In this document: in pieces, positions 13,129-31,267 of the stretch | How the letters are laid out: every line of letters begins with the position of its first letter | Position numbering within the stretch: the first letter of the stretch is position 1 | DNA from: a virus | Length of the DNA stretch: 64,000 nucleotides | Strand: one strand, 5' to 3' | Virus record (IMG/VR): IMGVR_UViG_3300012920_000031 | Location: 1-64,000 of that record | Translations under genes and position numbers: made by a program | Notes under the pieces: generated by a model | What the model saw: the letters and a program-made list of their open reading frames with translations, nothing else | What the model was told of the DNA's origin: nothing | Databases searched by the model: none

Positions 13129-13315
13129 CAACTAAACCTTTCATTTCTTCTAGAGTTTCCATAAGGGCTGCTTTTACCGCTTCCCTATCAATATCGAACA
13201 TCTCCATTATAAACCTTTTCTGGTCGGATGTCAAGTTTATAAAGTTATCTGGTAAGCCAGCGTGTGCTTTTATCAAAGCTGGCATCATATTATAAGTATC
13301 TTCAATTTTATTCAT
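13118..13315 (-). CDS. Small helical protein, 65 aa
   Basis: Short, wholly helical protein with an acidic C-terminal half (ALMETLEEMKGLVDEL). It is translated between the nucleotidyltransferase gene (8-base overlap) and dnaE (11-base overlap), so its position suggests translational coupling to the polymerase. No family recognised. Confidence 0.6.
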   Translation of the reverse strand: MNKIEDTYNMMPALIKAHAGLPDNFINLTSDQKRFIMEMFDIDREAVKAALMETLEEMKGLVDEL

Positions 13316-14165: not shown

Positions 14166-14892
14166 TTTCCTCCATAGAAAGATTCATGATCTTGACATTT
14201 TCTGTGTCTGCATATACGTTGTTGTCTTTTTGAAAGATTAATCTGTTTACATGCTTCACTTTTGGTTTTCGATACTTTGGCTTTCCACTTTTATAGTGTT
14301 TCATTAGACTACCATAAACCCCAACAGAGGTCAAGTATCTTTCGACCGTGAACCTAGCCATTGTATCTGAAAAATCAAAACAATTTATTTGTTCTTGAGT
14401 CAATTCTGATTCTACTATGCAGTCTGTAATATATGATGAGCCGTCTACTCGATCTGATGAATAAAAGTGTATTTGCTGTGCGAATCCCGGAGTAGATATA
14501 TTTGGTTGTATCTGTGTTCTAGGTGGGCCTAGTGTTGAAAGTTCAAAATCATCTAGTACAAGATAGGTTGTTTCGCGAGTTTCTTTAATTTCGTTTTCAA
14601 GTTGAATTCCCGTTGAATCAAACACAAAACACTTTTCAAATTTATATTTGTAAACTACATTTTGGGCTGTTATTTTTAGTTCATTGTCAACAATTCTTAT
14701 AGTTTCTGTTTTTTGAAAAGATAATAATTTTGACAACAAACCTAACATGAAGTTTAGCTTTGGCCAAGCTTCTACGTTTTCACGGTAAAATAAAGGGGGG
14801 CTCTCGCGAGTTGGTATGAAATAACACTCATTTATAAGGGCGTAGTGTACAGACTCCAACGACGAACCAATGACAACCTTGTCTAGTAGCAT
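14140..14892 (-). CDS. Unknown 250-aa protein, possible dinucleotide-binding N-terminus
   Basis: The first residues (DKVVIGSSLESVHYAL) form a strand-glycine/serine loop-helix like a degenerate Rossmann motif, followed by ECYFIPTRESPP. Later parts contain beta-rich segments (TYLVLDDFELSTL) and a helix with the basic KPKYRKPKVKH stretch. No catalytic signature is certain. It is sandwiched between the lipoprotein gene (10-base overlap) and the nucleotidyltransferase gene (26-base overlap), so the two enzymes probably work on the same compound (inference). Confidence 0.65.
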   Translation of the reverse strand: MLLDKVVIGSSLESVHYALINECYFIPTRESPPLFYRENVEAWPKLNFMLGLLSKLLSFQKTETIRIVDNELKITAQNVVYKYKFEKCFVFDSTGIQLENEIKETRETTYLVLDDFELSTLGPPRTQIQPNISTPGFAQQIHFYSSDRVDGSSYITDCIVESELTQEQINCFDFSDTMARFTVERYLTSVGVYGSLMKHYKSGKPKYRKPKVKHVNRLIFQKDNNVYADTENVKIMNLSMEEIVEESTKR

Positions 14893-16928
14893 ATTCTAAG
14901 TCTATAGTCATATCTTGGGTTAGTGGATGCAAACTGAAAACCCGGATGTAACACATTCATCCTCATACTTGATGAAGGTGGTGCTAAACAAATCTCATCA
15001 AGGATTGACATAAGGTCATCATACATTTGCTGTTGGTTTCTTGATAACTGAAACACTGAACCATTACCAGCATCAGCATAGTTGTCCCAAACCCTAGAAT
15101 TTCTCTCTGCAAATGCATAGAACTTTAAATTTGGAGTTGCTTCGAGGGCGTCCCAAACAACATCCGTATTGACCCGTGGTACTAGAAAAGATTGCGCAAA
15201 TTCGTCACTAAACAGTATTATGATCCTATCTGCATTTGGGCGCCAGTTTACCTTGAAAAATTTCAGCTCAGGCACTGACCCCATCCTGTTAGACCAAGTT
15301 GCACTTGCAAAATCATATTGAACATTTCCAGAAATATTTTGTAATGCGAGAATAATTGCATCCTTGAATTGCTCATTACCTGTCTGGTTATCAAATTGCC
15401 CTACATTTGCAAAAGCAGTTAGAAAATCTTCTAAATCTGCAATATCAGACTGCAATATCAGCATCTCCTGTATTCCCCCGGGACCAGGCGCAGCTTTAGG
15501 GCCAACAATCAGTCCCCACTTTAGCTTATCCTCTGCAGAAAAATCTTGAGCAAACCTATTCATAGCCATCCTAACAGCATTTATATAATTCTCCATAGAG
15601 CCTGACCAGTCAACTAAGAAAAGAATATCAGTTTCTGGTATCTCTTCTCCGTAATCAACAATACCGTCACAATCGTTGTCGGCGCCGTCGCAAATCTCTT
15701 CACTCGGCAATGTTTCACCTCCGCAAAAATCAACGACTTGGGCGCCCTGAGGAGTGCGGCCATACCACTGACCTCTATTGCAAGTTTGTTCTCCCATTGA
15801 GCATACTCCTACGTTTAAAGTGCCCTCAGGGCCGGTGTAACACTCTCTCGTTATACGTTCATCGGTAAGCAAGTCACAATCTTCGTCAAAGTTATTACAA
15901 ACCTCAGCGTCTATAGCTAGACCCACTAGAGGATCGCAAGGGGTATTTGGAGAGATCTCTGGCACCCAATGACATGCAGCAAAACACTCCGTCATTTGGG
16001 TAACTTCACACTCTTCTGTCAAACATTCGCAGGTTTTAAATCCCATACCACAAGTAAGAGGGGATTCCATACATGGAACTAAAGCTCCAACCATTTCAGG
16101 AGGGCATTGGCAGTTTAGACCCTCATCCACTAGGTTATCGCAATCATTATCCTCACCATCGCACTCTTCGTCAGCTGGACGTTGAGCTGTGCAGCCAATC
16201 CAATCTCCATTTCCACAAATCTCCAGACCTGAATTGCAAATGGTGGTACACTCTCTTATCAGTTGCTCGTCTACTGCACCATCGCAATCATTATCAAGGC
16301 CGTCACAAATATCCTCCGGCACTTGCCCACAGCCACCACAAGCATTCAGTTGGTTTTCATCCACATTCCCGTCACAGTCGTTGTCGTTACCATCGCACAC
16401 CTCCTCCTCTTCAAAGCAGGTCACACACTCTCCATAATACAAACGTCCTTTGTCACACCTGACTTGCTGAGTTCCAGATGTGCCGTCTATATCGCAATCA
16501 TAATACATGGTGAAATCCTCGTTGATACCAGGAGGACAATCAAAAGCATGCGTACAACCTGTCTCTTCAATAATCTCGGCAGGAGGACAATTTGGGTCTC
16601 TGTTTCTGTCACAGGGATTCATGTTCTCATCACAAATATCTAACACCGCATACTTTGCCTGTATTTCCACACCTCGCGGTGGACAATACCAAGTTTGTTG
16701 TTGGCAACAGTTCGGGTTGCAGTCGCAAAACCTAGGATGGGTATTTTGCAAATCCGCGCAGGGGTCGACCCAAGCGTCAACCGTAATGTCCGGTACTTGA
16801 ACTACCTGAACATCAACTGATGTCGAATCTGAGGTTAGAGTCCTGATACTTTCAGCATCTAAGCCTCCAGTCGTATTGCTGCTGTCTGAGCATGCAAATA
16901 AAAAAAGTAAAAGTGTTATTTTCTTCAT
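14883..16928 (-). CDS. Secreted lipoprotein with MopE-type metal-binding repeats and a VWA domain
   Basis: The start is the ATG at 16928 (MKKITLLLFLFAC), behind GGAG and overlapping the thyX stop. C13 closes a lipobox, so the 681-residue protein should be lipid-anchored outside the inner membrane. A Cys-rich region holds five repeats of the CDGxDNDCDGxVDE type (about 178, 208, 256, 344 and 413), the putative metal-binding motif of MopE-like proteins. A von Willebrand A domain follows from about 434 with the MIDAS motif DWSGS and a later FSDE. This architecture is common in predatory and myxobacterial-type surface proteins and surprising in a phage. A superinfection-blocking or surface-adhesion role is plausible but unproven. 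Confidence 0.85.
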   Translation of the reverse strand: MKKITLLLFLFACSDSSNTTGGLDAESIRTLTSDSTSVDVQVVQVPDITVDAWVDPCADLQNTHPRFCDCNPNCCQQQTWYCPPRGVEIQAKYAVLDICDENMNPCDRNRDPNCPPAEIIEETGCTHAFDCPPGINEDFTMYYDCDIDGTSGTQQVRCDKGRLYYGECVTCFEEEEVCDGNDNDCDGNVDENQLNACGGCGQVPEDICDGLDNDCDGAVDEQLIRECTTICNSGLEICGNGDWIGCTAQRPADEECDGEDNDCDNLVDEGLNCQCPPEMVGALVPCMESPLTCGMGFKTCECLTEECEVTQMTECFAACHWVPEISPNTPCDPLVGLAIDAEVCNNFDEDCDLLTDERITRECYTGPEGTLNVGVCSMGEQTCNRGQWYGRTPQGAQVVDFCGGETLPSEEICDGADNDCDGIVDYGEEIPETDILFLVDWSGSMENYINAVRMAMNRFAQDFSAEDKLKWGLIVGPKAAPGPGGIQEMLILQSDIADLEDFLTAFANVGQFDNQTGNEQFKDAIILALQNISGNVQYDFASATWSNRMGSVPELKFFKVNWRPNADRIIILFSDEFAQSFLVPRVNTDVVWDALEATPNLKFYAFAERNSRVWDNYADAGNGSVFQLSRNQQQMYDDLMSILDEICLAPPSSSMRMNVLHPGFQFASTNPRYDYRLRICY

Positions 16929-17632
16929 CAATGCTCCATTTTGTGTTTCATATAAGATCCTACAGAGTGAGGGAAATACTGCTTTGCGATTTTGAGGCAA
17001 GCTTTAGCAACCTGTTGAATTTCCCATTGAGCACCCTCATGGACCCTAAGAGAAACAAACTTCAGCAAGTTGTGTAAATTCACAGTGCCAAAGTACTGTG
17101 TATAAAGGTTTTGTGGTAAGACACCGCGGGCTTGTTCTCGACATACACCAGAAGATAATAAATTATCAAAAAGTTTCAAACACTCTTTGTGGTGCGCCCT
17201 CACCATTTCTGAAGCTAGCCCAGATACAGGTAGTCCTGACCTATTGTATTCCACTATAGGATCCACTAGCTCTTCTGTACTAGCTTGCCTATTGCTTTTG
17301 TGCTGTGTTCTAAACCGTTTTGGTTCGTAAAACTGAATGTCTACTGAGGTATAGCGTCTGCTAATTTCATTATAGGCCCAAGTACGGTGTCGATGATGCT
17401 GGGAACGTATAAATAAAGGCAAAGTGAATTTATAAGTCAACGCACAGTGTTCAAACGGGGAACTGTGATTGTGTTTCATCAGATAATTTATGAGTTTGAT
17501 GTCTTTTTCGTCGACGTCTTGCTTTTCTGATCCGAAAGAGACCCGCGCAGCATTAACAACTGACAGATCTGTACCCATATGTGAAACGTATTCAACCGCA
17601 CCTATATCGTCCCCAAATAAGTCAACTTTCAT
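16928..17632 (-). CDS. thyX: Flavin-dependent thymidylate synthase ThyX
   Basis: The 234-residue protein contains the ThyX motif as RHRTWAYNEISRRY, together with the upstream SSPFEH substrate/FAD segment and a C-terminal helix bundle. ThyX methylates dUMP to dTMP using methylene-tetrahydrofolate, FAD and NADPH. It works downstream of the phage dUTPase and ribonucleotide reductase. It overlaps the GroES gene by 11 bases and shares a base with the lipoprotein start (TGATG), so it sits in the operon driven from the promoter at 18239-18267. Confidence 0.97.
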   Translation of the reverse strand: MKVDLFGDDIGAVEYVSHMGTDLSVVNAARVSFGSEKQDVDEKDIKLINYLMKHNHSSPFEHCALTYKFTLPLFIRSQHHRHRTWAYNEISRRYTSVDIQFYEPKRFRTQHKSNRQASTEELVDPIVEYNRSGLPVSGLASEMVRAHHKECLKLFDNLLSSGVCREQARGVLPQNLYTQYFGTVNLHNLLKFVSLRVHEGAQWEIQQVAKACLKIAKQYFPHSVGSYMKHKMEH

Positions 17633-18273: not shown

Positions 18274-18588
18274 TTAAATAGAAAAACTTTCTCCGCAGCC
18301 ACAAGTTCTTTTTGCGTTAGGGTTTACAAATTTAAATCCAGACTGATTAAGTTCATCTACAAAGTCAATCTCTGTACCCATAAGATATAGAAAACTTTTT
18401 GGGTCAAGATAAATCTCTATGTCCTTATCAGTAATGACCCTATCATTGTCCTTTTGATTATCAAACAATAATTTATAAGTAAAGCCAGAGCACCCGCCGC
18501 CCTGTACAGCGGCGCGCACACCTGTCTCCTCTTTTTCTAAAAGCAAGGTTTTCATTTTGTTGGCTGCAGATTCAGTTAAAGTAATCAT
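18274..18588 (-). CDS. A-type iron-sulfur carrier (IscA/ErpA/HesB family)
   Basis: The 104-residue protein has the three conserved cysteines of A-type carriers: one in GGGCSGFTY and two in the C-terminal RTCGCGESF. Length and layout match IscA/ErpA. These proteins deliver Fe-S clusters to target enzymes; similar genes occur in marine phages. Here it overlaps the ribonucleotide reductase stop by 4 bases, but class II reductases need cobalamin rather than Fe-S, so the client is unclear. Confidence 0.93.
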   Translation of the reverse strand: MITLTESAANKMKTLLLEKEETGVRAAVQGGGCSGFTYKLLFDNQKDNDRVITDKDIEIYLDPKSFLYLMGTEIDFVDELNQSGFKFVNPNAKRTCGCGESFSI

Positions 18589-20447
18589 ACAAATTTCACT
18601 TCACAAGCGCCTCCGGCGCAAGCAACTTCACCTTTAAGATCCGTATTATCCTCTTCTTCTGTGACCTTAGTAAGATCTATAGATGTCAAGGAACCCAAAA
18701 GCGCTTCATATGTCTCTTTCGAACAATCTTCAAAAGGAGCCTGCTTGTAAGTATGGTCTGAGAATGGAAGCACCGACAAACCATTATAACTACTTCTATT
18801 CTCCCACATCCACTCTCCCACATCAACCCATTCTGCATCTTTTATTGAGATAGTTGCCGAAATGTTGTGGGTGTTTTGGCCCTTGCGGAAACCTGGTTTT
18901 ACCCACTCATCTGTTACGTGTTTCACTCTTTTGAGAAGTTGTAGTGCTGATTCTGTCCTTAAAATAGACCCCTCTGGAGCCTTTTGCGGAATAGAAATAA
19001 CAGCCGTCGTGTGAGGGCTAAAGTATTCATCTTCAATCAGTTCTGGGTGATTTTCAGCTAAGTATGTATAGATTGGTTCATTCTTGCCGACTCGAACGCG
19101 TCGAATATAATAATCGTTGTGCCAAGCGTGAATACCTGAAGAGGTACCAAGAGTCAAAGACGTAGTGCCCGCGGGCTTTACACAAGTTGTTCTTGCGGCT
19201 GGCTTAATACCCAACAACTCAGCCACTCTAGTATTTTCTTGTTTGACGCAACTTGCCGCTTCTTTCATATCAAGTTCTAACACTGCACCGGAGGCAATAC
19301 CCGTCATTGAAACTCCAATAAGAGCATCTTTTTCAGTGGTCCTGCGCCAGATGTCGCGAAGATAATGGAAATCTGTATAGCTTGCCTGCAGGGTCCCAAT
19401 AAAAGTTGCTGCTTTTACACGTTCATTAAGATCTTCTTGGCTTTCCACATTTGAAACATTGACTTCAGTCAAGTTACAAAACTGGTATGGTCGTAAACCA
19501 ATCTCACAACAAGGGTTCGTGCCCCAGTCCTTATCATTCGAAAAATAGAAACCGGGCTCACCTGCTCCTGATGCTTTCACTCTGTCCCACAAATTCATGA
19601 AGTATTCTTTATCAATCTTGTGGCGCAGCAAAACAACAGAATTATTGGCTCTACCTCGTTGTGGATTGGTTTCCCACCAGTTACCTGTTTTTGCAGCAAT
19701 CATGTCCTCATCATCTGCCGAGAACAAAGAAATGAGAGCAGCCCGACGAATACCACCTGCCAGTACAGCGTCTGCTATATGACAAATCATATCGTGTACT
19801 TCGATTGGCGTTAGCTTATCTCCATTTTCCTTCTGTGAAAGCATTCCCTCTAACTTTACCAGGCACTCACGCAGGGGTTGAGGTCCTGGGGCCTTGCCTC
19901 CAGAAGTAATGAGAGCAGCACCCTTCGGGCGAATGTCCGTATAGTCAAAACGAAGCCTTGATCCTCCTCTAAAATAAGAATTGACCAGAGTCTTTACAGC
20001 ATCTGCCCAACCTTCAATAGAGTCATTGACAAGGAACCTTCTTGTACGATTCATGTTTGGTCTAGTAATTTCTGGTAATTTTTCAACGTGATGCTTTTGT
20101 ACAGAATACCCAACGCCAGTTCCGCCGAGAAGAAGAAACATTGCTTCTCCAAAGCATCTCCAGTCATCGGCTGGCATAAAAGCGCAGTTGAAAATTCTAT
20201 TTGGGGCTACTTCAATCGGCTTACCACCGAACTGCATTGATCGCATTGATGGTAATACTTTCTTATCAAAAACCATTTTATATGCTTTTCTAATTTGAAG
20301 TTCCAACTCTGGAAACTTCTTGAGATGCATGTTCATATTTCTAGTAACAAGTTCATCCCATGTCTCTCTTCTTTTCTCTTTTTCCAAGTACCTTGCGTAC
20401 TTCATGTGTACTGTGATCTCTGATAATATTTGATTTGATAGCTCCAT
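18585..20447 (-). CDS. nrdJ: Class II (adenosylcobalamin-dependent) ribonucleotide reductase, monomeric RTPR type
   Basis: The 620-residue protein carries the radical site NPCCE (C313, E315) and the redox pair C88 and C324. The spacing from the radical Cys to the second Cys (11 residues) equals that of the Lactobacillus leichmannii enzyme. GGSRLRFDYTDIRPKGA and the C-terminal CAGGAC pair (C610, C615), which passes electrons, are also typical. It converts ribonucleotides to deoxyribonucleotides with adenosylcobalamin, so no NrdB radical subunit is needed and oxygen is irrelevant. It would draw cobalamin from the host and electrons from thioredoxin or the phage glutaredoxin. The start shares a base with the helicase stop. 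Confidence 0.93.
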   Translation of the reverse strand: MELSNQILSEITVHMKYARYLEKEKRRETWDELVTRNMNMHLKKFPELELQIRKAYKMVFDKKVLPSMRSMQFGGKPIEVAPNRIFNCAFMPADDWRCFGEAMFLLLGGTGVGYSVQKHHVEKLPEITRPNMNRTRRFLVNDSIEGWADAVKTLVNSYFRGGSRLRFDYTDIRPKGAALITSGGKAPGPQPLRECLVKLEGMLSQKENGDKLTPIEVHDMICHIADAVLAGGIRRAALISLFSADDEDMIAAKTGNWWETNPQRGRANNSVVLLRHKIDKEYFMNLWDRVKASGAGEPGFYFSNDKDWGTNPCCEIGLRPYQFCNLTEVNVSNVESQEDLNERVKAATFIGTLQASYTDFHYLRDIWRRTTEKDALIGVSMTGIASGAVLELDMKEAASCVKQENTRVAELLGIKPAARTTCVKPAGTTSLTLGTSSGIHAWHNDYYIRRVRVGKNEPIYTYLAENHPELIEDEYFSPHTTAVISIPQKAPEGSILRTESALQLLKRVKHVTDEWVKPGFRKGQNTHNISATISIKDAEWVDVGEWMWENRSSYNGLSVLPFSDHTYKQAPFEDCSKETYEALLGSLTSIDLTKVTEEEDNTDLKGEVACAGGACEVKFV

Positions 20448-21826
20448 TAATTTTTTCCTCCTTCTTTTTTAAAAGCCTTATATCTTTCACGAAGACTATT
20501 GATCCTCGCTTCTTCACTCTTTTGGACAATATCATTTACTGTTTCACCTGTTTTGGGTAAAACTTTTATACATACATTGCTTGTATCCATGAAAATTGGA
20601 TACACTAATCCATCTGGACCATTGCGGTTCTTCGCCACGAAGATGCGGCCCTGGTTAGTATTCTTATCTTCTACAGTTCTCGACACTGTAAAGATAAAAT
20701 CTGCTACAAAGCATTTGTTGAACGCCTCAGAGATTGATTCCATAGTAATCACTTCAGCGTTGATTCCAGATCTGTTGGTTTGCGATGCCGTCCAGACAGG
20801 ACATTCGCAAATTTGAGCTATTCCTCTAAGCTCTTCGTAAATAGTTTCGAGTTGGTGCCTTTTCTCATCTTTTCTGCTATTTTCTGGTCGAATTAGGTCT
20901 CCGTAGTCTACAATGATCATATCTGGGACAAAATTACGCCTTTTTAGCTTCTCAATGTGATTTTTGATTGTTTGGATACTAGCGCTTCTTGTTGGGTATT
21001 CTTTGATGATTAGCTTACCATCAATTTCTCTGATTTCGTCGTAAATCTTTTCTTTGAAAACTGCTAGGTTCTTGAGTTCAACACCTGTGATAGCAGCATC
21101 ATAACGACCACCCACCACAGTATCCGCAAGCTCAAGCGTATAATGAAGAACATTTTTTCCGGACTTAAGAGCTTGAGCGCCGAGATGAACAAGGACCATT
21201 GATTTGCCAGCACCAGTAGGAGCAACAACAACGCCAAGCTCGCCTTTCCCAAGACCTCCTTTAGAAATTTCATCAATGTCTCTCCATCCTGTTGTTACAG
21301 GGTCTCTGGCTTTTTTTACAAACCTAGCTTCGAAATCCACAAGATAATCATAACCCAAAGTATTGTCTGATCCTAACTTTAGCGCGTCGTCTATAACTTT
21401 AGAAACTTCATCAAATGAAGAAGACTTTATTAGCTCTACAGACTTTATTAGGGCTTCTTTGAGTTTTTGTTTTTTACAAAAATCAAGAGCAGTATCTTTA
21501 ATGAAGTCAGCGCCGGCCGGAAGTTCACCGTTGGCCAACACTCTAGCATAGTAGTCTCTGATCCTCGTCTTGACTGACTCTTGCTCTCCCTCCAAACCTG
21601 TTCGTAAGATGGACAGCATAATGTTAGATGTGGGATGGACTCCATACTTTTCTCGATACTCCTTGATCTTTCTAATAAAGACCCGTAAATGCTTTAGTTC
21701 TAAAAAGTTCAAATCCAGCACTTCAAACATTTGGTCTGCAAATGTTCTGTCATTTAAGACAAGATGACACATGTCCTCTTGAAATGTTTTCCCGAACTTA
21801 GAAAAACTCTTCTTTTCTTGTTCCAT
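20447..21826 (-). CDS. Replicative DNA helicase, DnaB/gp41-like
   Basis: The N-terminal helical domain (1-150) is followed by a RecA-like ATPase core: Walker A VAPTGAGKS with K208, Walker B MIIVDYGDL, and the later SQTNRSG and KNRNGPDG segments of DnaB-type helicases. The length (459 aa) is close to T4 gp41 and DnaB. It unwinds the fork ahead of the phage DnaE polymerase. AAAGGA precedes the start, which lies 36 bases after the exonuclease gene. No primase domain is fused. Confidence 0.93.
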   Translation of the reverse strand: MEQEKKSFSKFGKTFQEDMCHLVLNDRTFADQMFEVLDLNFLELKHLRVFIRKIKEYREKYGVHPTSNIMLSILRTGLEGEQESVKTRIRDYYARVLANGELPAGADFIKDTALDFCKKQKLKEALIKSVELIKSSSFDEVSKVIDDALKLGSDNTLGYDYLVDFEARFVKKARDPVTTGWRDIDEISKGGLGKGELGVVVAPTGAGKSMVLVHLGAQALKSGKNVLHYTLELADTVVGGRYDAAITGVELKNLAVFKEKIYDEIREIDGKLIIKEYPTRSASIQTIKNHIEKLKRRNFVPDMIIVDYGDLIRPENSRKDEKRHQLETIYEELRGIAQICECPVWTASQTNRSGINAEVITMESISEAFNKCFVADFIFTVSRTVEDKNTNQGRIFVAKNRNGPDGLVYPIFMDTSNVCIKVLPKTGETVNDIVQKSEEARINSLRERYKAFKKEGGKN

Positions 21827-21862: not shown

Positions 21863-22825
21863 TCACTGAGAAAAGGAAGTAATAATATGGTTAAATCTTT
21901 GTTCCAAATCTGTGGTTGTCACAGTGAGTACTCCATCTTGGAGCATCAGTTTTCTGATTTCCGTTTGATTATAGTGTGGCTTATATTGCTCAAACGTATC
22001 GTCGATCCCTTGTTTAGCTTGTATTGATAGCATGGGTGAAGATAGCTGCATAATATCATAATTATTTTCTATTAACTCCTCGTTTTCTAAGATGTTTGTG
22101 TACACTTTCTGTTTGTTGTCTGGTTTTTCACATTCAGCGATAACATCAGATAAGTAGTATGTTTTTTCTTCTTTCAGAAAAGAAAATCGTTTTGCAACAG
22201 TTTCCATACCCACTCTGGGTACACCCGGTAGATTATCTGAAGAGTCTCCAACAATGGCTCTAGCAAGGGCAAAATTAGTTGGGTGGATACCAAACTTATC
22301 CACAACATTGTTCTTATTGAGATACTCTTTTTGAATTGGCCTGTGCAGGATAGTTTTATCATCTAAGAGTTGGATAAAATCTTTATCTGCGGATACAATT
22401 ACTTTTTGCCACTCTGAAAAAATGGGACTGTTTTTAATGTAAGATATCACATCATCAGCCTCCACAAGCGGCTCCATAAACTGGATTACTGGAGTTTGAT
22501 TGAAGTATTCGATTACACGCATTTGTTGCCAAACTTTATTTTCTGTAATATCTTCTTCAACCATTCCAACCTGAGACCAGTTGGTTCTCGGTGGTTTTCT
22601 TCCACCTTTGTATGACTTGTTCATGCTGCGGCGTTTCTTACTACCGCCCTTACCATCCCAAACAAGAACAAGTAGATCTGGCTTGACCTCTCTTGTCAGC
22701 TTGTTGAAGATATTGATAAAAGTGCGAATACCGCCGATTGGAGACCCGTTCGGGTTCTTGCTAGGATCTACTATATATCCGCGGATAAATTGATTGTACG
22801 CGTCTACTATCATTACTCTTTTCAT
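21863..22825 (-). CDS. 5'-3' exonuclease / flap endonuclease (Pol I N-terminal or RNase H type)
   Basis: I start the protein at the ATG at 22825 (MKRVMIVDAYN), just one base after the stop of a 31-codon reading frame; the longer reading from 22861 overlaps that small gene. Acidic metal-site motifs are present: VDAYN, LVWDG, VEADDVIS, SADKDFIQLL, and GDSSDNLPGVPRVG, the latter being the H3TH region that follows the second metal site. It removes RNA primers and flaps, complementing two polymerases that lack this domain. Length is 320 residues, typical of T4 RNase H or T5 flap nuclease. Confidence 0.93.
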   Translation of the reverse strand: MKRVMIVDAYNQFIRGYIVDPSKNPNGSPIGGIRTFINIFNKLTREVKPDLLVLVWDGKGGSKKRRSMNKSYKGGRKPPRTNWSQVGMVEEDITENKVWQQMRVIEYFNQTPVIQFMEPLVEADDVISYIKNSPIFSEWQKVIVSADKDFIQLLDDKTILHRPIQKEYLNKNNVVDKFGIHPTNFALARAIVGDSSDNLPGVPRVGMETVAKRFSFLKEEKTYYLSDVIAECEKPDNKQKVYTNILENEELIENNYDIMQLSSPMLSIQAKQGIDDTFEQYKPHYNQTEIRKLMLQDGVLTVTTTDLEQRFNHIITSFSQ

Positions 22826-22826
22826 T

Positions 22827-22922
22827 TTAGTTTCTCTTCCATTTATGTAGGGCCAATCCAATGATCAACATACCAACTGCAGTGTAAATAAAATTAGTAT
22901 CACTTAGTATTCCTTCAAACAT
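22827..22922 (-). CDS. 31-aa small membrane peptide
   Basis: An ATG at 22922 preceded by AAAGGAGG opens 31 codons beginning MFEGILSDTNF, with a hydrophobic stretch (YTAVGMLIIGLAL) and a basic tail (HKWKRN), then TAA one base before the exonuclease ATG. The ideal ribosome site, the single membrane helix with positive C-terminal residues, and the tight spacing support a real gene, probably translationally coupled to the exonuclease. Function unknown. Confidence 0.7.
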   Translation of the reverse strand: MFEGILSDTNFIYTAVGMLIIGLALHKWKRN

Positions 22923-22975: not shown

Positions 22976-24103
22976 TCACTCATTAGACGGGGAATCGTCT
23001 AACTCGTAAAAATCAGAAGCATTGCCTTCTCTATTACTGAACTTCATAATAACATCTTCGTCCATAATTGTCAAGACAGTTTTTCTGAAATTTTCATCCT
23101 GAAGCTTGTCGAGCCATTGCTTACGCTGGAACTTTGTTTCTGTTCCGTCGTCATGAACAATAGCGAACCAAGCACCAGACTGCTTCAGTCGCTCAGAGAT
23201 TTGGATCGCGTCGAACCAACTTTCCTCATCCTGAACACCTACAGCATCGTCACCCCAAAGAATCTTGAAGTTACAAGTTCGACCGGCTGTCCCGAAACGA
23301 GACTTTTCCAGCTTTACTTTCACCTCAGATCCAATGCGGTAACCATTATCATCAACAATAAAACTTGCCTTGGCTTTTCTAGCTGTAAGCCAGATTCGTA
23401 GTGAATACGAGTAAGGTAAAGCTTTTCCACCAGGCGTTACGTACGGTGTCGTCATTGCTTGTGCAGGTGTTCTTGCACCCAAGTTTGTCTTTAGTTGGTT
23501 CAAAACCAGCAACGTTGCATTAGCATCTGCAATCGGCACAATGAGCTTTGACATACCTTTCGCTAAGATTCTAGGCTTTACGGCCATTGACGACTGAGGG
23601 TTGAAGTCACCCTCAATGTCTGATATCGAAGGAGTCAAGGCTAAAGAGTCCCAAATAAACAACCACTTGTTTCCTGTGGCTAGTAACTCTTCGATTGTCT
23701 CTAGCACAAATTCTACTGACTCTGCCTGAACATACAAGAGCTTTTCGAGATCGCAATCAGCACGCTCTAAAAAAGAAGGGTCAATAGCTGACTCTGAATC
23801 GAAATAAACAACGTCGATCCCCATCTTTTGAGCGTTTGCTGCAATCTTAGCTGCCATAAATGACTTACCAGTTGCCTCAAGCCCTGCAATTTCAGAAACT
23901 TTACCAACTGGGATTCCCGCTAATTTGCCCTTACAGACAATAGAATCTAACCATCGAGACCCAGTAGGGATCCACTCATTGACTTCAGTTGGGTTATTAT
24001 CCTGAAGTGAGTGAGCGACTTCTCTGCCCGCTTTCTTGTTGATGATGCCCTTGATTGCTGAAATGTCAAGGGCGCCTTTTTTTAGTTTGGTTACTTTAGC
24101 CAT
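22976..24103 (-). CDS. RecA/UvsX-type recombinase
   Basis: The 375-residue protein has Walker A GLEATGKS (K80), Walker B LFIWDSLAL, the loop region around LNQLKTNLGARTP and TPGGKALPY, and an acidic C-terminal tail (YELDDSPSNE). It is nearer T4 UvsX than cellular RecA in its short N-terminus and ATP loop. It promotes strand exchange for recombination-dependent replication and repair, with the gp32-like protein (7 bases upstream) and the SbcDC-type nuclease. A terminator follows directly. Confidence 0.93.
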   Translation of the reverse strand: MAKVTKLKKGALDISAIKGIINKKAGREVAHSLQDNNPTEVNEWIPTGSRWLDSIVCKGKLAGIPVGKVSEIAGLEATGKSFMAAKIAANAQKMGIDVVYFDSESAIDPSFLERADCDLEKLLYVQAESVEFVLETIEELLATGNKWLFIWDSLALTPSISDIEGDFNPQSSMAVKPRILAKGMSKLIVPIADANATLLVLNQLKTNLGARTPAQAMTTPYVTPGGKALPYSYSLRIWLTARKAKASFIVDDNGYRIGSEVKVKLEKSRFGTAGRTCNFKILWGDDAVGVQDEESWFDAIQISERLKQSGAWFAIVHDDGTETKFQRKQWLDKLQDENFRKTVLTIMDEDVIMKFSNREGNASDFYELDDSPSNE

Positions 24104-24110
24104 AACCTAC

Positions 24111-24860
24111 CTACTGATTCAACAGGTCGCTGAACGCGGCCTCAACTGAATCTGTCTCGGTGTTGTTGGTACCAAACTTTTCAACCTCTTGATTACCAGT
24201 GTCACCAGCCATAAACTGATCAAGGATTGATTGTACCTCTTCAGTTGTTTTTCTTTCGAAGATCTCGTCGAAGTTTGGAATCGTTTCCAAAAGCTCCGCG
24301 CAGCGGTCATCGCCGCCAACTGCTTCGTCACAAAGAACAGTCTTTCGAGGACGTGGTCGGATATCCGTGCGAGGGAAGCTAGCTCCGGGGAGCTTACCGT
24401 ACATTAGCTTTAAATCGTTCCCTGTCTCTGGATCTGTAATGTCTCCATAGTCGGGATCAAGGACGATTGTCAAAAGCTTTTCGTAGGCCATCTTGCCATA
24501 CCCCCAAACACGGATACCCTCCTGTTCTTCACCTCGGACGAGGACCGGGGAAAAGAATCGTTGCTTTGCAAACATTTCCTTTGCTTGTCTTTTACTTTCT
24601 TCTGTGCCTTCGTTCCACAGTTTATTTGCAAAGTTGCATACAGGACAATCATCTCCAAAGTTTCTCTTTGGGCAAAGAAATGACTGGCCGCCAACTCCAT
24701 AGTGAAAAAAGCGTTCCTTGAACGGATCGCCATCTGGTGTCGAAACAATACGGATATTGCTCTCTCCATCTTCAGGTCTCCAGAAGTTTTTCTTCCCTCC
24801 TTCGCCCTTTCCATTAAGTTTATCTAACTTCGCTTTCATCGCGTCTAAATTAAGTGCCAC
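24111..24860 (-). CDS. Single-stranded DNA-binding protein (T4 gp32-like)
   Basis: The start is a GTG at 24860 (ALNLDAMKAKLDKL follows), 7 bases after AGGAGG; the longer reading from 24896 has no ribosome site. The 249-residue protein shows a basic N-terminal arm, a core with a zinc site of gp32 type (H-x9-C-x8-C-x2-C across HYGVGGQSFLC...CPVC) and an acidic, flexible C-terminus (NNTETDSVEAAFSDLL). It coats ssDNA and recruits replication partners. Its leader carries a strong promoter and a hairpin, so autoregulation as in T4 gene 32 is possible. Confidence 0.9.
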   Translation of the reverse strand: MALNLDAMKAKLDKLNGKGEGGKKNFWRPEDGESNIRIVSTPDGDPFKERFFHYGVGGQSFLCPKRNFGDDCPVCNFANKLWNEGTEESKRQAKEMFAKQRFFSPVLVRGEEQEGIRVWGYGKMAYEKLLTIVLDPDYGDITDPETGNDLKLMYGKLPGASFPRTDIRPRPRKTVLCDEAVGGDDRCAELLETIPNFDEIFERKTTEEVQSILDQFMAGDTGNQEVEKFGTNNTETDSVEAAFSDLLNQ

Positions 24861-24912
24861 TATAATACCTCCTATTGGTTTGTTGTTTTTTTGCACACTC
24901 TCGGCTATAGCA

Positions 24913-24942: not shown

Positions 24943-24971
24943 ATAATATCTTATTTTTTATTCTGTGTCAA
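24943..24971 (-). promoter_or_regulatory. Sigma-70-type promoter for ssb-recA
   Basis: TTGACA (24966-24971), 17 bases, TATTAT (24943-24948) on the minus strand. The -35 box lies inside the last codons of the tubulin-like gene, allowing high independent expression of the ssDNA-binding protein and recombinase. Confidence 0.85.
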
Positions 24972-25815
24972 GTTTTATTTGCTGAATTTTTGGAGAAAAT
25001 AATTCCACATAAATGTAGTCATCTTCATATTGTGTTGGATAGATCCCGAAGGAGACCTTTCTTTCTTCAGTGATTTTTGATTTTACATTATTTGTTATTT
25101 TTCTAAACAAATTTTCTTCTGTCCTGAGCTTCTCTTCATTTATACCATAATAATACACCATTTCAACTTGATTTTCAAGAGGAAAAAACAACTTTTCTGA
25201 TTCTCCTATTGATCCCAGTCCAATGGTCGTGATTCTGCAAGATTCTTTTGGTCTTTTGAATGTTGATGTTATAGGCTTTGTATTCTTGAACACATCCATC
25301 ATGTAATAAGTTGACGTAAATACATGATTTATTTGATTGTAATAATCAAATACATTTGTCGATCCAGCTAAATCTTCTAAGATGATGTTAGACACCAAGC
25401 ATATCTTATCAAATAAGCCACTTCGAGTAAAGTTTTGTAATATCCCCATAACAGAACGCTCATGTAAGACTTTTGTATCAGATAGTACATCTGTTTCGGG
25501 AACAAAATAAACAATATCCATTTTTATGTCTTTTTTATGCAAATGCTCTAATGCGCGCAAGGTCAATCCGGTTGAATCTGATGCTCCGCACAAAAAAACT
25601 GTACAATGGTCATTTATTTTATCTAACCACTTATGAAGCCGTGACAGATCCATGGATTCATACTCTTCAGGGCCCTGCTGTACTGGTAGGCTAAACTTGA
25701 ATTTAGAAGTTTTATTATTTTCGTTTGAAATGTAGTAGCATTCATACGTAGGGTATTCTGAAAGTTGTTGCACCACATTGCAGCCTGCAGTTCCTATGCC
25801 TAAAAGTTTTTTCAA
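24958..25815 (-). CDS. Divergent tubulin/FtsZ-superfamily-like protein
   Basis: The 285-residue protein starts at a TTG (25815) behind AAGGAG, overlapping the polymerase stop by 4 bases. The order of elements follows FtsZ: GIGTAGCNVV (T1 nucleotide loop, residues 6-15), YYIS after the second strand, FLCGASDSTGLTLRALEHL where FtsZ has GGGTGTG (T4 loop), a strand IVYFVP, then DKICLVSN with N143 at the nucleotide-contacting position. Helices then lead to a C-terminal domain beginning ITTIGLGSIGE. The T4 loop is degenerate, and the NxDFAD catalytic T7 motif is not visible, so GTP hydrolysis is doubtful. It might be a polymer-forming or a regulatory relative of PhuZ/TubZ. Confidence 0.65.
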   Translation of the reverse strand: MKKLLGIGTAGCNVVQQLSEYPTYECYYISNENNKTSKFKFSLPVQQGPEEYESMDLSRLHKWLDKINDHCTVFLCGASDSTGLTLRALEHLHKKDIKMDIVYFVPETDVLSDTKVLHERSVMGILQNFTRSGLFDKICLVSNIILEDLAGSTNVFDYYNQINHVFTSTYYMMDVFKNTKPITSTFKRPKESCRITTIGLGSIGESEKLFFPLENQVEMVYYYGINEEKLRTEENLFRKITNNVKSKITEERKVSFGIYPTQYEDDYIYVELFSPKIQQIKLDTE

Positions 25816-26942
25816 AGATTCAGCTCCTTTAAGTTAGAGAATGTTTTGCCAACCTTGCATGTGCTGGTAAAATTACCCCATCGCGTTTTCTCAAATTGCG
25901 ATTTGATATCTCGTAGCATTATAACATCTTCTTGGCACATGTCAAGTATAATTGAGTCATGGAGTGTAAATGCTATGGTAGATTTTTTACCTTTGAGCAT
26001 TTTTTGAATTTTATATGCGTTTTCCAATACTTGGTCCGACGTTGTTGATTGTAGTAGATAGTTTTGTGCTTTTCTTTCCTCCACCACTAGTTTACGACCA
26101 AATGGCGTTGTAAGGACGCGGTCTTCAGAAAAGTAAAAATCTCGAAAAATTGTCCGCGAAAAAATTTGGTCAAATCGACTTTTTGAGTTCGAAGGATTAT
26201 ACAGCCAGGCGAACAACTCTATCTTGGCCTGAGACCTCTGAATATTATTTTGAAATACATTTTTCACTACCCATTCGTGTATATCTCCTTGAGGCTGTTC
26301 TTTTCCAGACAGTGCCATTAGCATTCTGACCTCTGCGGCATTTAGATCTAGTTCTACAAACGCATCGTTTTGAGGTCTTAATAATTGTCTCTGTTCTTTC
26401 TTTAAAGTTAGAACCGGAATTGAATCTCTTCTTGTTGTTAGCCTGCCGGTGGCTGAGCCAAAGATGTTGTATAACACTCTTCCTTTCCTATTTCCAAACT
26501 GTACAGTCTGTCTTGCAATGTTTGATGTCAAGACATGTATTTTATGCAGAATCTCATAATCCTCTTCTTTTTTTGTCGTCTTATAGAGATTCTCCAGGGC
26601 TTGCTGTTTTATCTGAAACCACTTCACTAGTTGATGCTCTGGTAATAGATCGAAAAAACACTGATCCTGTAGACTTACCTTTGCAGATATAGCTGCTTTT
26701 TGGTGTGCCTGCATTTTTTTACTGTATAAGATAAAGGCTTCAGGATCTTGACAGTACGGAGACAAATCCTCTTCTTTCACAGAAAGAAAAAGATAGTGAA
26801 AATTTTCATCTTCTAACAAGGGCGAGTGTTTCCAAGCTAGCGTATACTGATTCGCAGTTGATTCTACGTCATCAAATAAAAAAGTATTGTTATGAAATAT
26901 GCCGCGGCAGTTATCTTTTATATCTAGAGTTTGAAGAATCAC
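25812..26942 (-). CDS. Short family-A DNA polymerase (Pol I palm/fingers only)
   Basis: The 376-residue protein contains the polymerase core motifs: SATGRL (about 163-168), motif A LDLNAAEVR with D199 and E204, motif B R236...K240...Y248, and motif C LHDSIILD with H328-D329. Both metal-binding aspartates are present. There is no 3'-5' exonuclease domain and the thumb is reduced; full Pol I is about 930 aa. It could fill gaps or act in repair or recombination. It is embedded in the tail-gene operon, starts at a GTG overlapping the upstream stop (GTGA), and coexists with the DnaE replicase, which is unusual. Confidence 0.85.
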   Translation of the reverse strand: MILQTLDIKDNCRGIFHNNTFLFDDVESTANQYTLAWKHSPLLEDENFHYLFLSVKEEDLSPYCQDPEAFILYSKKMQAHQKAAISAKVSLQDQCFFDLLPEHQLVKWFQIKQQALENLYKTTKKEEDYEILHKIHVLTSNIARQTVQFGNRKGRVLYNIFGSATGRLTTRRDSIPVLTLKKEQRQLLRPQNDAFVELDLNAAEVRMLMALSGKEQPQGDIHEWVVKNVFQNNIQRSQAKIELFAWLYNPSNSKSRFDQIFSRTIFRDFYFSEDRVLTTPFGRKLVVEERKAQNYLLQSTTSDQVLENAYKIQKMLKGKKSTIAFTLHDSIILDMCQEDVIMLRDIKSQFEKTRWGNFTSTCKVGKTFSNLKELNL

Positions 26943-28156
26943 ATAAAATCCTTTATGGTTATGTTTTGATAGGAGTTTATTCCTTTTTTATTTTCGTATA
27001 TTGTTTTTAGATATTCTGAAGTATACAATCCAATTTTCCCTAAAGCCGGCTTTACACTGTAACCATTTTTATTATATTTTACACCATATATATCTTGTAA
27101 GTCAAGAACTAATTGCTTTCTTTCTGATAATTCATCAGGCGTAATATTTATCCCTAGTTCTTTGTGTCTTATTTCGACCAATTCTTGTATCCACCAAGAG
27201 ACATCATACTTAGCTTCTATTTGTGGACGTAGTTTAAGAGTTCTCTTAGTCTCTAAGGATGTTGAATCTGTTTGGGCCTTTTCGAAAAAAGGATTCTGAT
27301 CGACAAACTCGTTGTAAAGACCAGTAAAAAATCTCTGTATACTATCCAAATCATCATAGTGAGTTTTAGTTCTGAAAAGTCTAGAGAGTATATTTTCTGT
27401 GCTTGTATCTCTAAAATATTTTAAAATGTGATTTTGCATAACTGAGGATTCAAGGTTGGCTATCAATCTTGCTGGATAGTTTTTGTCCACGTAAAAGCCA
27501 GCTTGATTTGCGACATCAGCATAACACTTAAATTCCTTTGTTTGTACAATCTTACCTTTTGTAAAATCTTGATCATAGGGCTGGTTTGATAGTTCTATAC
27601 ATAAACCAGAAACATTGATAGGACAATCTAAAGAAAGAAGAAACCCTGATTTTGTTATGGGCGCAAGTTTTAATTGTGTATATAATTCTTGTCGACAATG
27701 CTTCATAAAATCACCGAAGTTGTAAATACTACGCTGGACAGAAGTGATTCTAGACAGCAAAGACTCTGCTATACGTGTTATATACTCTGAATAAGAAGCT
27801 TGAAAATCTACGTGAGCTTTCTTAGGTACCAAATTTTCCAAAAAAGGAGGAAAACTAATCGATGTTTCTTGTACTATTGAAAGGTAAGAGTCTCTAAACT
27901 GATTGAATGCGCTTACAGCAAAAGATACAGCATAAAGATTAGGGTTTGCATAATCACCAAAATTTGACATGGTGGAATCTTTGTCTTCCGCCAATAACAC
28001 TACAGGCTCAAAGTCAGCATTATACAATCCATAGTTTGGCTTTTCATACCAAAGGTCTATGAAATCTACTTCTGGAATATCCATGTTTTGTTTGTACTTT
28101 TTTCTTTCCATGAATGCCAACCTAGAGGGTAAACCATTACTTCCTAAAAAATCCAT
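26939..28156 (-). CDS. Virion structural protein, 405 aa, probable baseplate region
   Basis: No family is firmly recognised. The protein has mixed helix and strand content, a cysteine-poor body, a segment rich in Tyr/Phe early on, and a C-terminal domain with LGINITPDELSERKQLV. It shares a base with the 923-residue gene stop (TAATG) and overlaps the polymerase gene by 4 bases. Its position directly downstream of the tape measure, gp53-like and 923-residue genes suggests a baseplate or tail-tip component; this is contextual. Confidence 0.6.
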   Translation of the reverse strand: MDFLGSNGLPSRLAFMERKKYKQNMDIPEVDFIDLWYEKPNYGLYNADFEPVVLLAEDKDSTMSNFGDYANPNLYAVSFAVSAFNQFRDSYLSIVQETSISFPPFLENLVPKKAHVDFQASYSEYITRIAESLLSRITSVQRSIYNFGDFMKHCRQELYTQLKLAPITKSGFLLSLDCPINVSGLCIELSNQPYDQDFTKGKIVQTKEFKCYADVANQAGFYVDKNYPARLIANLESSVMQNHILKYFRDTSTENILSRLFRTKTHYDDLDSIQRFFTGLYNEFVDQNPFFEKAQTDSTSLETKRTLKLRPQIEAKYDVSWWIQELVEIRHKELGINITPDELSERKQLVLDLQDIYGVKYNKNGYSVKPALGKIGLYTSEYLKTIYENKKGINSYQNITIKDFM

Positions 28157-30927
28157 TAGTTACTAGCCTCCGTTTTTATGCTTATACTATTATTTTCACC
28201 AACTGAGACTGTAATATTAGGTGCCCCACTGCGGCGCCTTACTAGATATTCTCTACCTTGATTCACAACTCTCCTTGATGAAGTGTTGTTTTCTGCAAAA
28301 CCATTTGTCAATTCTGCTCTAATGATGTCATTCTTTTCATCTTCAGTGAGCAAGGTTGAAGATCTTATAACATCATAATCTGAAGATTTTTTGCTTTCAT
28401 AATTTGGTGCGTCATAAGATGGAGCATCATCTGTAGATTTAGACTCAGGATTTTGATCAGGTGCTTTAGGTTTACTCTGGGTTATCTCCGCCAGGAATGA
28501 AGAGTCAGAATCTGCCCAAGAAACATAAGATGTTGACAAGCTAGTTGAGAATGCTGACCCATTAAAATTTGTACTTACAGTTATAACCTGGTAATAACCT
28601 CCCAGGCCCAATCTAAATGCTGCAGAATTTTTAGACCTGGGGTCTCCAAATCCAATACTAGAAGGGTTCAGATAAATCATCATACCGGGGAGGAAAAAAT
28701 TGTTACCAAACATTTCAATATTTGCAGTGTACGGCATCTTTAATTCATCGTATAAAGATACAGACTCTAACATCAGCGACTCTTTCCTGCCGGGAATATC
28801 GTATTTACTAAATGACACATTCTTCAGCATGCCTCTATTTTTACCTATTTGCAAGTGGTAGATTCCATCTCTAGCGTCTTTTTTTGCATCACCCGAAAGA
28901 CCCGATGGTGAATCTTCAGTTGCCTCTGAATATACTATATAATAATCATGGTCATCAGCAGATCGAGTACTGGTGCCAGCCTTATGAAAGTCTGGTAAGT
29001 CATCAATGTCTATCACATCTTTTTTGCCTTGTAGTTTGTTTGATTTTGGACCTGTGACCAACAAAGATCTTATGGCAATGTTTGAAGACATAGTAGGTAC
29101 ATCTTCAGAAATATTAGAAGAAAGCGCTTTCGCGATTAGCTTACAACACAAGTCATCTAGAAAACTTTTTACAGAGAACTTATTTTTTGACATTTGTTCT
29201 ATTTCATCGAAAAAATGTTTACCTAGTATACTCAACTCTATGGGTACATCAGCAATATTAATGACCTTAACACCATTTGGGGTATTTATTGGCACTGTCG
29301 AAAAAAGAATTTTCATAGACTTCAGCGAAAGAAGTGATTTCTGAAGCTGCTCTATGTGCGATTTCCGATCCAGGCCCTGCATTGCTTGATCACGGGCCTT
29401 AGTTATGGCAAAATCTAAATTTCTCATAATGTTAAAAGAGATGGACTCTACGACATCACCAACATAAACATAGCTAATAGATTTATTTTTCTGGCGGTAT
29501 CTATACAGTTCGTCAAGTTCTTTCAGGTCCTTGTTGATATCTTGTCTCGCCCTAAGGGTCTCATCCGCTAGCTCTTTTGATTGTGATACAAGGGTGCTGG
29601 TATCTTGAGACCCAAAGCCGCCAGTCAAATCGAAGTTTCCAAGACTTGTGGCAGTGCCTCCGCTGCCGCCGGCGGATGGGCTACTAAGATTTATTTTTTG
29701 CTCCAGTACCTTTTGCGTTTTAGCTTCAAGAGCAGCTTGAATCTTGATCTGCTCTAGAGATCTGCCAAACTGTTTCTCTTCTTTTTTAGCGACTTGATTT
29801 TCTAGCATTTTTGCGGCCGCATCTGTTTGCGCGGTGAGCTTGTCAGAATCTTGAAACATTCTGAATGCGGACATGTCCAGAGAGCTAAGACTCATATCGT
29901 GTATTCTTTGCTTTGAGCTTTTTGGATTTTTATCATCAGTTAGATAAGTAAATATTCTTCTTAGTTTTGATACAAGGCGCGCGCGGGATGCCCTTTGTTG
30001 TTCTTCTTTTTCTTCTTCAGAAATATCGTCTGGTTTTTTGTCTTTTTTTGCTCCAGATTTGAAGCCGGCTAGTATTACCAAATCTGATGGTTCCCTCATT
30101 ACATCATACATACTATCATGCAAGGCGCCCTCCAGTCTACCAATGTAACTAATATCTATGGTGGCTGTACCATCTTGATTTACATTTATAGAGTGATCAT
30201 AAAGTGTCATCCTGATGGTTACATTTGTTTTTCTAATTGCTTCTTTTTCGGCCGCTGTAAATATGTTACTTCTTTCTGGGAAACTGTAACCCATCCTCAT
30301 AGCTATCTCGAAACTACTAGCATCCTTAGTCTGCTCTGAAGACACCTCTTTTGAGACACCGGAGCTTACTGATTTAGACGATCTTCTGGATATGGTAAAT
30401 AAGTCTGCTAACTTTGCAAAACCAGGAGGTACTTCTTTGAAAATGTTTTCTAAATTATCAACAAAAATGCTTAGATTGCAATCTATTTGCTTATCAAAAG
30501 AAAAGGGATTGTTTCCTGTGTACTGTACAGACATGCTCTTTATGCCGGATGCACCGATGCCTGTTCCGGGACCTAGCATGCTTTCTCTTGTTACCCTTTC
30601 TGCTGCTATGGGAAAATAAAATGGTATATAATTCGAGTTTTGTACCTTGTACAGGGTTAGACTTGGTTGTAAAGAAGATAGCTTATGTGTTTCTAGGTCT
30701 AGAAAATGCCTGTAAGCATTTACATTCTTTGGCTTGTATAGCTTTGATACAAAACTTATCGGAGTATAGTCTCCGTCAATTTTATATACCCCAATTGAAT
30801 TCTTTATAAGATCGTTATTTATTCTTGATCCGTTTTTTGTATCAGATTTGGCTCTTCTGTTTTTTGCATACTTTTCGTATACAACATAACCCTGGTCATT
30901 GAATTTTCTTGTCTTTATGCTAGCCAT
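28156..30927 (-). CDS. Large baseplate/hub-region structural protein, 923 aa
   Basis: The N-terminal third is beta-rich. A Ser/Lys-rich, then coiled-coil middle (about 310-470, with EEEKEEQQRASRARL and LEQKIN) follows. The region about 690-830 contains ANIEMFGNNFFLPGMMIYLNPSS and RLGLGGYYQVITV, a beta-barrel pattern seen in tail-hub proteins (strands linking a PGMxIYxNP loop with a LGLGGYY turn). The C-terminus is flexible. The gene overlaps the gp53-like gene by 8 bases. I interpret it as a tail-hub or baseplate protein, without a firm homologue. Confidence 0.65.
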   Translation of the reverse strand: MASIKTRKFNDQGYVVYEKYAKNRRAKSDTKNGSRINNDLIKNSIGVYKIDGDYTPISFVSKLYKPKNVNAYRHFLDLETHKLSSLQPSLTLYKVQNSNYIPFYFPIAAERVTRESMLGPGTGIGASGIKSMSVQYTGNNPFSFDKQIDCNLSIFVDNLENIFKEVPPGFAKLADLFTISRRSSKSVSSGVSKEVSSEQTKDASSFEIAMRMGYSFPERSNIFTAAEKEAIRKTNVTIRMTLYDHSINVNQDGTATIDISYIGRLEGALHDSMYDVMREPSDLVILAGFKSGAKKDKKPDDISEEEKEEQQRASRARLVSKLRRIFTYLTDDKNPKSSKQRIHDMSLSSLDMSAFRMFQDSDKLTAQTDAAAKMLENQVAKKEEKQFGRSLEQIKIQAALEAKTQKVLEQKINLSSPSAGGSGGTATSLGNFDLTGGFGSQDTSTLVSQSKELADETLRARQDINKDLKELDELYRYRQKNKSISYVYVGDVVESISFNIMRNLDFAITKARDQAMQGLDRKSHIEQLQKSLLSLKSMKILFSTVPINTPNGVKVINIADVPIELSILGKHFFDEIEQMSKNKFSVKSFLDDLCCKLIAKALSSNISEDVPTMSSNIAIRSLLVTGPKSNKLQGKKDVIDIDDLPDFHKAGTSTRSADDHDYYIVYSEATEDSPSGLSGDAKKDARDGIYHLQIGKNRGMLKNVSFSKYDIPGRKESLMLESVSLYDELKMPYTANIEMFGNNFFLPGMMIYLNPSSIGFGDPRSKNSAAFRLGLGGYYQVITVSTNFNGSAFSTSLSTSYVSWADSDSSFLAEITQSKPKAPDQNPESKSTDDAPSYDAPNYESKKSSDYDVIRSSTLLTEDEKNDIIRAELTNGFAENNTSSRRVVNQGREYLVRRRSGAPNITVSVGENNSISIKTEASN

Positions 30928-31267
30928 TTTCTCTTTCTGCGTAATACAACACTTCTTCTAAGGGTAGAGGAATGTGTACAGTATCTCCTATATTGTACAA
31001 ATTGTCAATAGGTTTTTTATTGAACCAGCCAATGACCCACCAGTAACTTGTGTCTCCATAATATTCATGCGCCAATTTAGAAAGACTATCACTAACAGTA
31101 AATATATGATCAATGATGTCAAGGTCTTTCATCTCAGAAGAAGTTATTTTTCCAAACTTCATTTTCGATAAGTGTCTAAAAGATTTTATACCCCTTTCTT
31201 TGAGAAAGGATTTATACAACTTATTTTCATTTATAAAAATATCTCTATTCTGGTTCCTGTCTACCAT
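30920..31267 (-). CDS. Baseplate wedge-type protein with LysM-like domain (gp53-like)
   Basis: The 115-residue protein has a basic N-terminal half and a LysM-like C-terminal half, HIFTVSDSLSKLAHEYYGD, YWWVIGWFN and GDTVHIPLP, as in T4 gp53 and LysM proteins that join tail sheath and baseplate. No signal peptide is present, so it is a virion part rather than a wall enzyme. An AGGAG ribosome site precedes it, next to the 224-residue tail gene. Confidence 0.8.
   Translation of the reverse strand: MVDRNQNRDIFINENKLYKSFLKERGIKSFRHLSKMKFGKITSSEMKDLDIIDHIFTVSDSLSKLAHEYYGDTSYWWVIGWFNKKPIDNLYNIGDTVHIPLPLEEVLYYAERENG

Follow-up and report, generated by a model that had tools for sequence, protein, structure and literature searches.

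A divergent tubulin/FtsZ-like protein predicted from a core gene in the replication operon of Far-T4-related phages

What kind of protein is encoded between the DNA polymerase and the single-strand DNA-binding protein of a T4-like phage? The window, which is the whole stretch of 64,000 nucleotides analysed here and most of a 68,060-base virus record (IMGVR_UViG_3300012920_000031), raises this question at a reading frame that an initial annotation, made from the letters of the DNA, had taken for a tubulin/FtsZ-like gene. The frame lies on the minus strand, which that annotation did not give, and its features are collected in the table together with those of its neighbours. Taking all the evidence together, we consider it rather probable that the product is a divergent and reduced member of the tubulin/FtsZ superfamily, encoded by a core gene of its clade and with a role in replication that we infer.

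Table. Positions of the tubulin-like gene, its motifs and its conserved neighbours; positions are those of the window unless another locus is named
Feature	Positions	Strand	Remarks
Predicted tubulin/FtsZ-superfamily protein, 285 aa	24958..25815	minus	TTG start; stop included
Overlap of 4 nt, TTGA	25812..25815	minus	polymerase stop TGA and tubulin-like gene start TTG
T1 loop, residues 6-13	25777..25800	minus	GIGTAGCN (FtsZ GVGGGGGN)
T4 position, residues 76-83	25567..25590	minus	CGASDSTG (FtsZ GGGTGTG)
End of H5, residues 127-132	25420..25437	minus	QNFTRS; Q127, R131 and S132 nearly invariant, family-specific
T6 asparagine, N143	25387..25389	minus	aligned with FtsZ N165; conservation 0.97
Start of H7, residues 158-163	25327..25344	minus	YYNQIN; Y/F159 and N163 aligned with FtsZ F182 and N186
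H7-S7 connector, residues 178-195	25231..25284	minus	site expected for T7 and H8; no NxDxxD, no H8
Baseplate wedge subunit (phrog_7145)	30920..31267	minus	tail end of the module
Conserved 923-aa protein	28156..30927	minus	between baseplate gene and 405-aa protein
Conserved 405-aa protein	26939..28156	minus	upstream of polymerase
Compact family-A DNA polymerase, 376 aa	25812..26942	minus	motif A DLNAAEVR, B RSQAK, C HDS
gp32-like single-strand DNA-binding protein	24111..24896	minus	
UvsX/RecA recombinase	22976..24103	minus	
5'-3' exonuclease	21863..22861	minus	
DnaB-type replicative helicase	20447..21826	minus	named by synteny with immuto136C_7
Ribonucleotide reductase	18585..20447	minus	from position and sequence appearance only
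129-151-aa orphan family, example	L315:1346-1798		
129-151-aa orphan family, example	L316:5675-6061		
129-151-aa orphan family, example	L149:10215-10601		

Successive searches of IMG/VR with growing alignments raised the number of relatives from 18 to 45, then to 76 and finally to at least 583 loci, with identities down to about 32%, and when a second scan was started from a distant member, 598 of its 600 candidates were confirmed. Some of these loci are one virus in several assemblies, and 184 distinct full-length sequences were gathered. In the four pairs with measurable dS, synonymous change lies far above non-synonymous change (dN/dS 0.05-0.07), and the gene is under purifying selection. 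Given so many homologous loci, this low dN/dS and a conserved gene order, the frame is not a chance open reading frame, and treating it as a real gene was correct.

Direct database searches did not name the family. Neither Pfam nor NCBIfam gave a match at gathering level, PHROGs gave none that was convincing, phmmer and hmmsearch against the PDB with the window protein gave none that was usable, and a relative turned up neither with tblastn against NCBI phages nor when contigs of bacterial and archaeal genomes were scanned for a pattern. The tubulin model PF00091 stayed below its gathering score with weak matches only (E 0.13 and 0.0085), some of them to single relatives, and TIGR00065 stayed below its cut-off, its sole partial match being to one relative, L111, over T6-H7 (E 0.063). 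PDB profile matches to designer PPR proteins were discarded as repeat artefacts, made up of eight domains of 1-4 bits each.

It is at the level of predicted structure and of profile-profile comparison that the family becomes recognisable. AlphaFold2, given the window protein and 28 relatives, returned a model with a pLDDT of 88.8 and a pTM of 0.88, three of the five models lying close together; for L111, with a broader alignment, the values were 94.9 and 0.92, and all five models scored above 94. Every one of the best 50 PDB matches listed by Foldseek for the window model is an FtsZ or a TubZ (best E 2e-13, probability 1.00, TMq up to 0.71, identity 11-16%), and those listed for L111 are nothing but FtsZ and TubZ entries and a single gamma-tubulin complex (TMq up to 0.75). 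In the viral library BFVD the window model finds a phage FtsZ at the top (TMq 0.76), followed by a set that includes PhuZ. Both models have a nucleotide-binding domain, a central helix H7 and a C-terminal domain, with the elements in the order S1-H1-S2...S6-H6-H7-S7...S10; in the window model these are S1 then H1 (2-18), S2 (24-30), S4 then H4 (70-94), S5 (98-105), S6 then H6 (137-150), the long helix H7 (158-177) and S7 (195-201), the first strand of the C-terminal domain. The peptides from which the fold had been read at the outset (GIGTAGCNVV, YYIS, FLCGASDSTGL, IVYFVP, VSN and ITTIGLGSIGE) are all present in the frame and sit at the claimed fold elements in the predicted model.

Comparison of profiles agrees with the models. 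Against nine PhuZ sequences the family profile reaches a probability of 85.7% and an E-value of 5.5e-6, in an alignment that pairs T1 (LGQAGCNIA with CGGAGFRIG), T2 (KID with YID) and T4, and against seven FtsZ sequences, over a collinear stretch between T1 and H7, it reaches P ~6e-4; eight phage families used as controls gave P of at least 0.07 against the family and of at least 0.058 against FtsZ. As far as profiles can tell, the closest family detectable by sequence is thus PhuZ and not FtsZ. The predicted models confirm a tubulin/FtsZ fold with both domains, and the superfamily membership proposed by the initial annotation holds. That annotation had also named the outcome that would count against it, a structure without both domains or a best match to an unrelated Rossmann enzyme; both domains are there in the model, and the PDB matches listed for it include no other Rossmann enzyme.

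How much of the nucleotide pocket is kept was read from the profile alignment and the order of secondary structure elements, and motif counts refer to 185 aligned sequences, namely the 184 distinct relatives and the window protein. A loop of the G-x-G-x-A-G kind occupies T1 in 184 of the 185, the strict GxGxxGxN in 92, among which the window's GIGTAGCN fits, and G8 has a conservation of 1.00 among the 184. In FtsZ, N165, F182 and N186 are the residues that grip guanine; at the aligned positions the family has N143 (0.97) in T6 and, on H7, Y/F159 (0.89) and N163 (0.97). The initial annotation had described T4 as degenerate and T7 as not seen, and this extends to the whole family: neither GGGTG[ST]G nor N.D..[DE] occurs in any of the 185 sequences. 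T4 is replaced by CGASxSxG in the window's subclade and by G-[AS]-G-x-[IV]-S-G in distant members (for example GGSGxISG). No helix H8 lies between H7 and S7 in either predicted model, helix H9 of the C-terminal domain is missing, and so is the C-terminal tail, the proteins ending no more than about 20 residues after the last strand. Family-specific invariants are found at the end of H5, which by fold topology would face away from the nucleotide, and at Y24, E50-x-Y52-E/D53, L86 and Q278.

A base pocket that is conserved and T7 acids that are missing fit the earlier proposal of a reduced protein that may bind nucleotide without the usual hydrolysis. Judged from these alignments, the protein probably binds a guanine nucleotide, and hydrolysis by the canonical mechanism with T7 acids is very probably lost. 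Because N13 of T1 is just 57% conserved and D30 of T2 is missing from the window's subclade, nucleotide binding could also be weakened or lost. The sole partly conserved acid in the connector, at position 191 (77%), could act as a substitute catalytic residue.

The phage that carries this gene is T4-like: it encodes the terminase, portal and major head protein as well as sheath and baseplate components. The nearest relatives of its capsid and terminase are in LR756508, Flavobacterium phage immuto and Microcystis phage Mel-JY01, with RM378 as a further one for the capsid. These are phages of the Far-T4 group, as described in passages of PMC4360716; passages of PMC7198788 tie the group to Bacteroidetes, and a Bacteroidetes host for the window virus is only a suggestion. 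The conserved gene order runs from the baseplate wedge gene through those for the 923-aa and 405-aa proteins and the family-A polymerase to the tubulin-like gene, and from there through gp32, UvsX, the 5'-3' exonuclease and the helicase to ribonucleotide reductase.

The small DNA polymerase to which the initial annotation coupled the gene is indeed there, as a compact family-A enzyme (PF00476, E 3.4e-11) with invariant motif residues, and it is apparently catalytic, as far as its motifs tell; it is not the only polymerase of the phage, however, as the window also encodes a full one of the Pol III alpha type (9697-13131, minus strand). The compact enzyme, about 376 aa long, is nearly unmatched in NCBI phages, with one record. 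Elsewhere on the minus strand of the window there are a phage-encoded GroEL chaperonin (1682-3247; phrog_5725, E 4e-143), a 705-aa protein with MopE-type copper-binding repeats (14886-17000; PF11617) and a 1032-aa frame (60271-63366) in which an Mre11/SbcD-like phosphoesterase is fused to a Rad50/SbcC-like SMC ATPase, whereas T4 has gp47 and gp46 as two genes.

Within its clade the tubulin-like gene is a constant companion of these replication genes. It is present in 79 of 79 loci that were found via the polymerase alone, and where a locus found via the tubulin-like gene includes enough upstream DNA, the polymerase is nearby (144 of 144). The TTGA overlap claimed for the window is borne out by the junction sequence; among 188 loci, 95 have the same 4-nt overlap and 50 more have either a different overlap or a spacing of no more than 30 nt, so that the two genes overlap or abut in 145, and some loci have other genes inserted between them. 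As gp32, UvsX and the other neighbours co-occur with the gene equally, this co-occurrence shows core status and not a physical partnership with the polymerase. The gene is a core gene of one large Far-T4-related clade of environmental phages that had not been described.

The closest capsid and terminase relatives nevertheless lack it. In the sister lineage of immuto, Mel-JY01, LR756508 and the IMG/VR relatives of immuto, which includes a phage of 484 kb, none of 68 loci with the polymerase followed by gp32 has the tubulin-like gene at E < 10, nor was it found in the whole records of LR756508, immuto, Mel-JY01, RM378 and LR756511. Immuto and Mel-JY01 share with the window phage the order of polymerase, SSB, RecA, exonuclease and helicase, but in both, and in LR756508, the slot between polymerase and gp32 is filled by a conserved orphan family of 129-151 aa, found in 51 of the 68 loci. 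A PHROG search with this family gave nothing clear (best E 0.0075, to a family of unknown function). It is absent from the loci of the tubulin-like clade and from the window, and 13 large contigs that carry the tubulin-like gene hold none but one marginal match elsewhere (E 0.003). Homology between the small protein and the C-terminal domain of the tubulin-like protein was considered and rejected on profile comparison (P 0.39-0.74). The tubulin-like gene has replaced an unrelated gene of the sister-phage slot. This replacement looks like a single event, with which the recombinase tree, having an outgroup of just two rows, both with very long branches, is compatible.

What might such a protein do? 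Of the roles considered, the likeliest, which we hold only tentatively, is that of a filament or scaffold that gives phage DNA replication its spatial or structural order. It is rather unlikely that the protein is a cytomotive filament of the PhuZ or TubZ kind, which would polymerise, hydrolyse nucleotide via non-canonical residues and position phage DNA or capsids, even though PhuZ is the closest family by profile, TubZ and PhuZ are both among the structural matches and the acid at 191 offers a candidate catalytic residue. PhuZ retains the acids of its T7 motif LDxxDI (D201 and D204 are invariant in the PhuZ alignment), for which the family has no equivalent in any sequence, just as it has no H8. 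PhuZ phages also encode chimallin, and none was detected in 11 large contigs, which may be incomplete, in a search that found the control RAY and missed the control jumbo phage Serratia 2050HW. PhuZ has a C-terminal tail that it requires for polymerisation (PMC3678025), and the family has no such tail. With the T7 acids and the tail missing and no chimallin in these contigs, a PhuZ-like spindle is less favoured. A pseudo-GTPase that does not polymerise and that physically assists the compact family-A polymerase, or the complex of SSB and UvsX, seems to us unlikely to about the same degree. It would account for the invariable operon, the overlapping or abutting junctions, the lost bottom interface of T7 and H8, and the strong invariants outside the nucleotide motifs (Q127, R131, S132, Y24, E50-x-Y52-E/D53 and Q278), but a coupling specific to the polymerase does not follow from co-occurrence when every neighbour is equally conserved and sister phages have the polymerase without the tubulin-like gene, and since other genes intervene in some loci, physical coupling is not required.

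A mimic that caps or poisons the division ring of the host during infection is improbable. The fold is FtsZ-like, and small phage proteins are known to attack FtsZ, for example lambda Kil in the passages of PMC3961180; but structural alignments give only 11-16% identity to FtsZ, the elements of the bottom interface are missing, and such a gene would be expected to be patchy and to track the host FtsZ, whereas this one is an invariant core gene. Last, the GxGxAG loop attracts weak profile matches to shikimate dehydrogenase, TrkA_N and YjeF_N, which could indicate a Rossmann-type enzyme that binds NAD(P) or another dinucleotide and merely resembles FtsZ. We regard this as very improbable, as the arrangement of H7 and C-terminal domain is specific to the tubulin superfamily, the profile match to PhuZ points the same way, and the listed PDB matches of both models belong to that superfamily; the three NAD(P) readings were rejected on both fold searches.

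Preferring a scaffold or filament for replication, one can sketch how it might work. The protein would be produced together with the replication proteins; nucleotide binding may set its conformation, which is a specific guess, and an interface centred on Q127, R131 and S132 at the end of H5 may stand in for the lost contact of T7 and H8. A still more specific version, in which the protein lacks both GTP hydrolysis and the classical protofilament interface, has become a permanent component of the replication machinery, acts as a nucleotide-gated scaffold with the set of family-A polymerase, SSB and UvsX, and has taken over the function of the 129-151-aa protein, is unlikely.

Among known systems, PhuZ is alike in being a phage-encoded protein of the superfamily, but it belongs to phiKZ-like, nucleus-forming jumbo phages and not to a Far-T4-related lineage. 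FtsZ provides the best structural matches (E ~1e-13, TM ~0.7), with its T6 asparagine and the aromatic residue and asparagine of H7 aligned, yet it is a division GTPase of bacteria and archaea with GGGTGTG, NxDxxD, H8, an H9-type helix and a C-terminal tail, all of which are absent from this protein of a phage replication operon. TubZ/RepX (structural matches 4ei7 and 2xka) is likewise encoded on an extrachromosomal element; TubZ is about 100 residues longer and partners TubR in partition. The best viral structural match, A0A6J5RW92 from an uncultured Caudovirales phage, has 452 aa and only 12% identity. With the T4 and T7 signatures missing, none of the names FtsZ, TubZ and PhuZ fits the protein. 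Divergence of this kind has its nearest precedents in FtsZl1 and FtsZl2, themselves diverged members of the superfamily. In FtsZl1 the T6-H7 elements are likewise not recognisable, and it may not assemble into standard filaments; both families keep GGGTG(S/T)G, are cellular and larger and occur in vWA or other contexts (PMC2875224, Makarova and Koonin 2010), whereas the present family is viral, keeps T6 and H7 and lacks the T4 and T7 signatures. Jumbo phages, huge phages and marine relatives of phiKZ are known to encode tubulins; the open-access text passages searched contain no mention of a tubulin-like gene in a Far-T4 phage. Relative to the literature searched, the family is a new, widespread and divergent variant within the tubulin/FtsZ superfamily.

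The PhuZ-like and TubZ-like tubulins known from phages belong to jumbo phages that form a nucleus and to partition systems. With the present family they are joined by a large clade apart from those phages, where the gene for a protein of predicted tubulin fold is part of the core of the replication operon. As it lacks H8, the acids of T7 and the signature of T4 but keeps the base-binding side, the family offers a test of the tubulin fold without canonical hydrolysis, and the slot exchange provides a shared, genetically testable context for both genes, this one and the 129-151-aa orphan. A predicted FtsZ/tubulin fold without the residues for GTP hydrolysis, fixed between the genes for a polymerase and an SSB, suggests a stripped-down tubulin adapted to organising phage replication.
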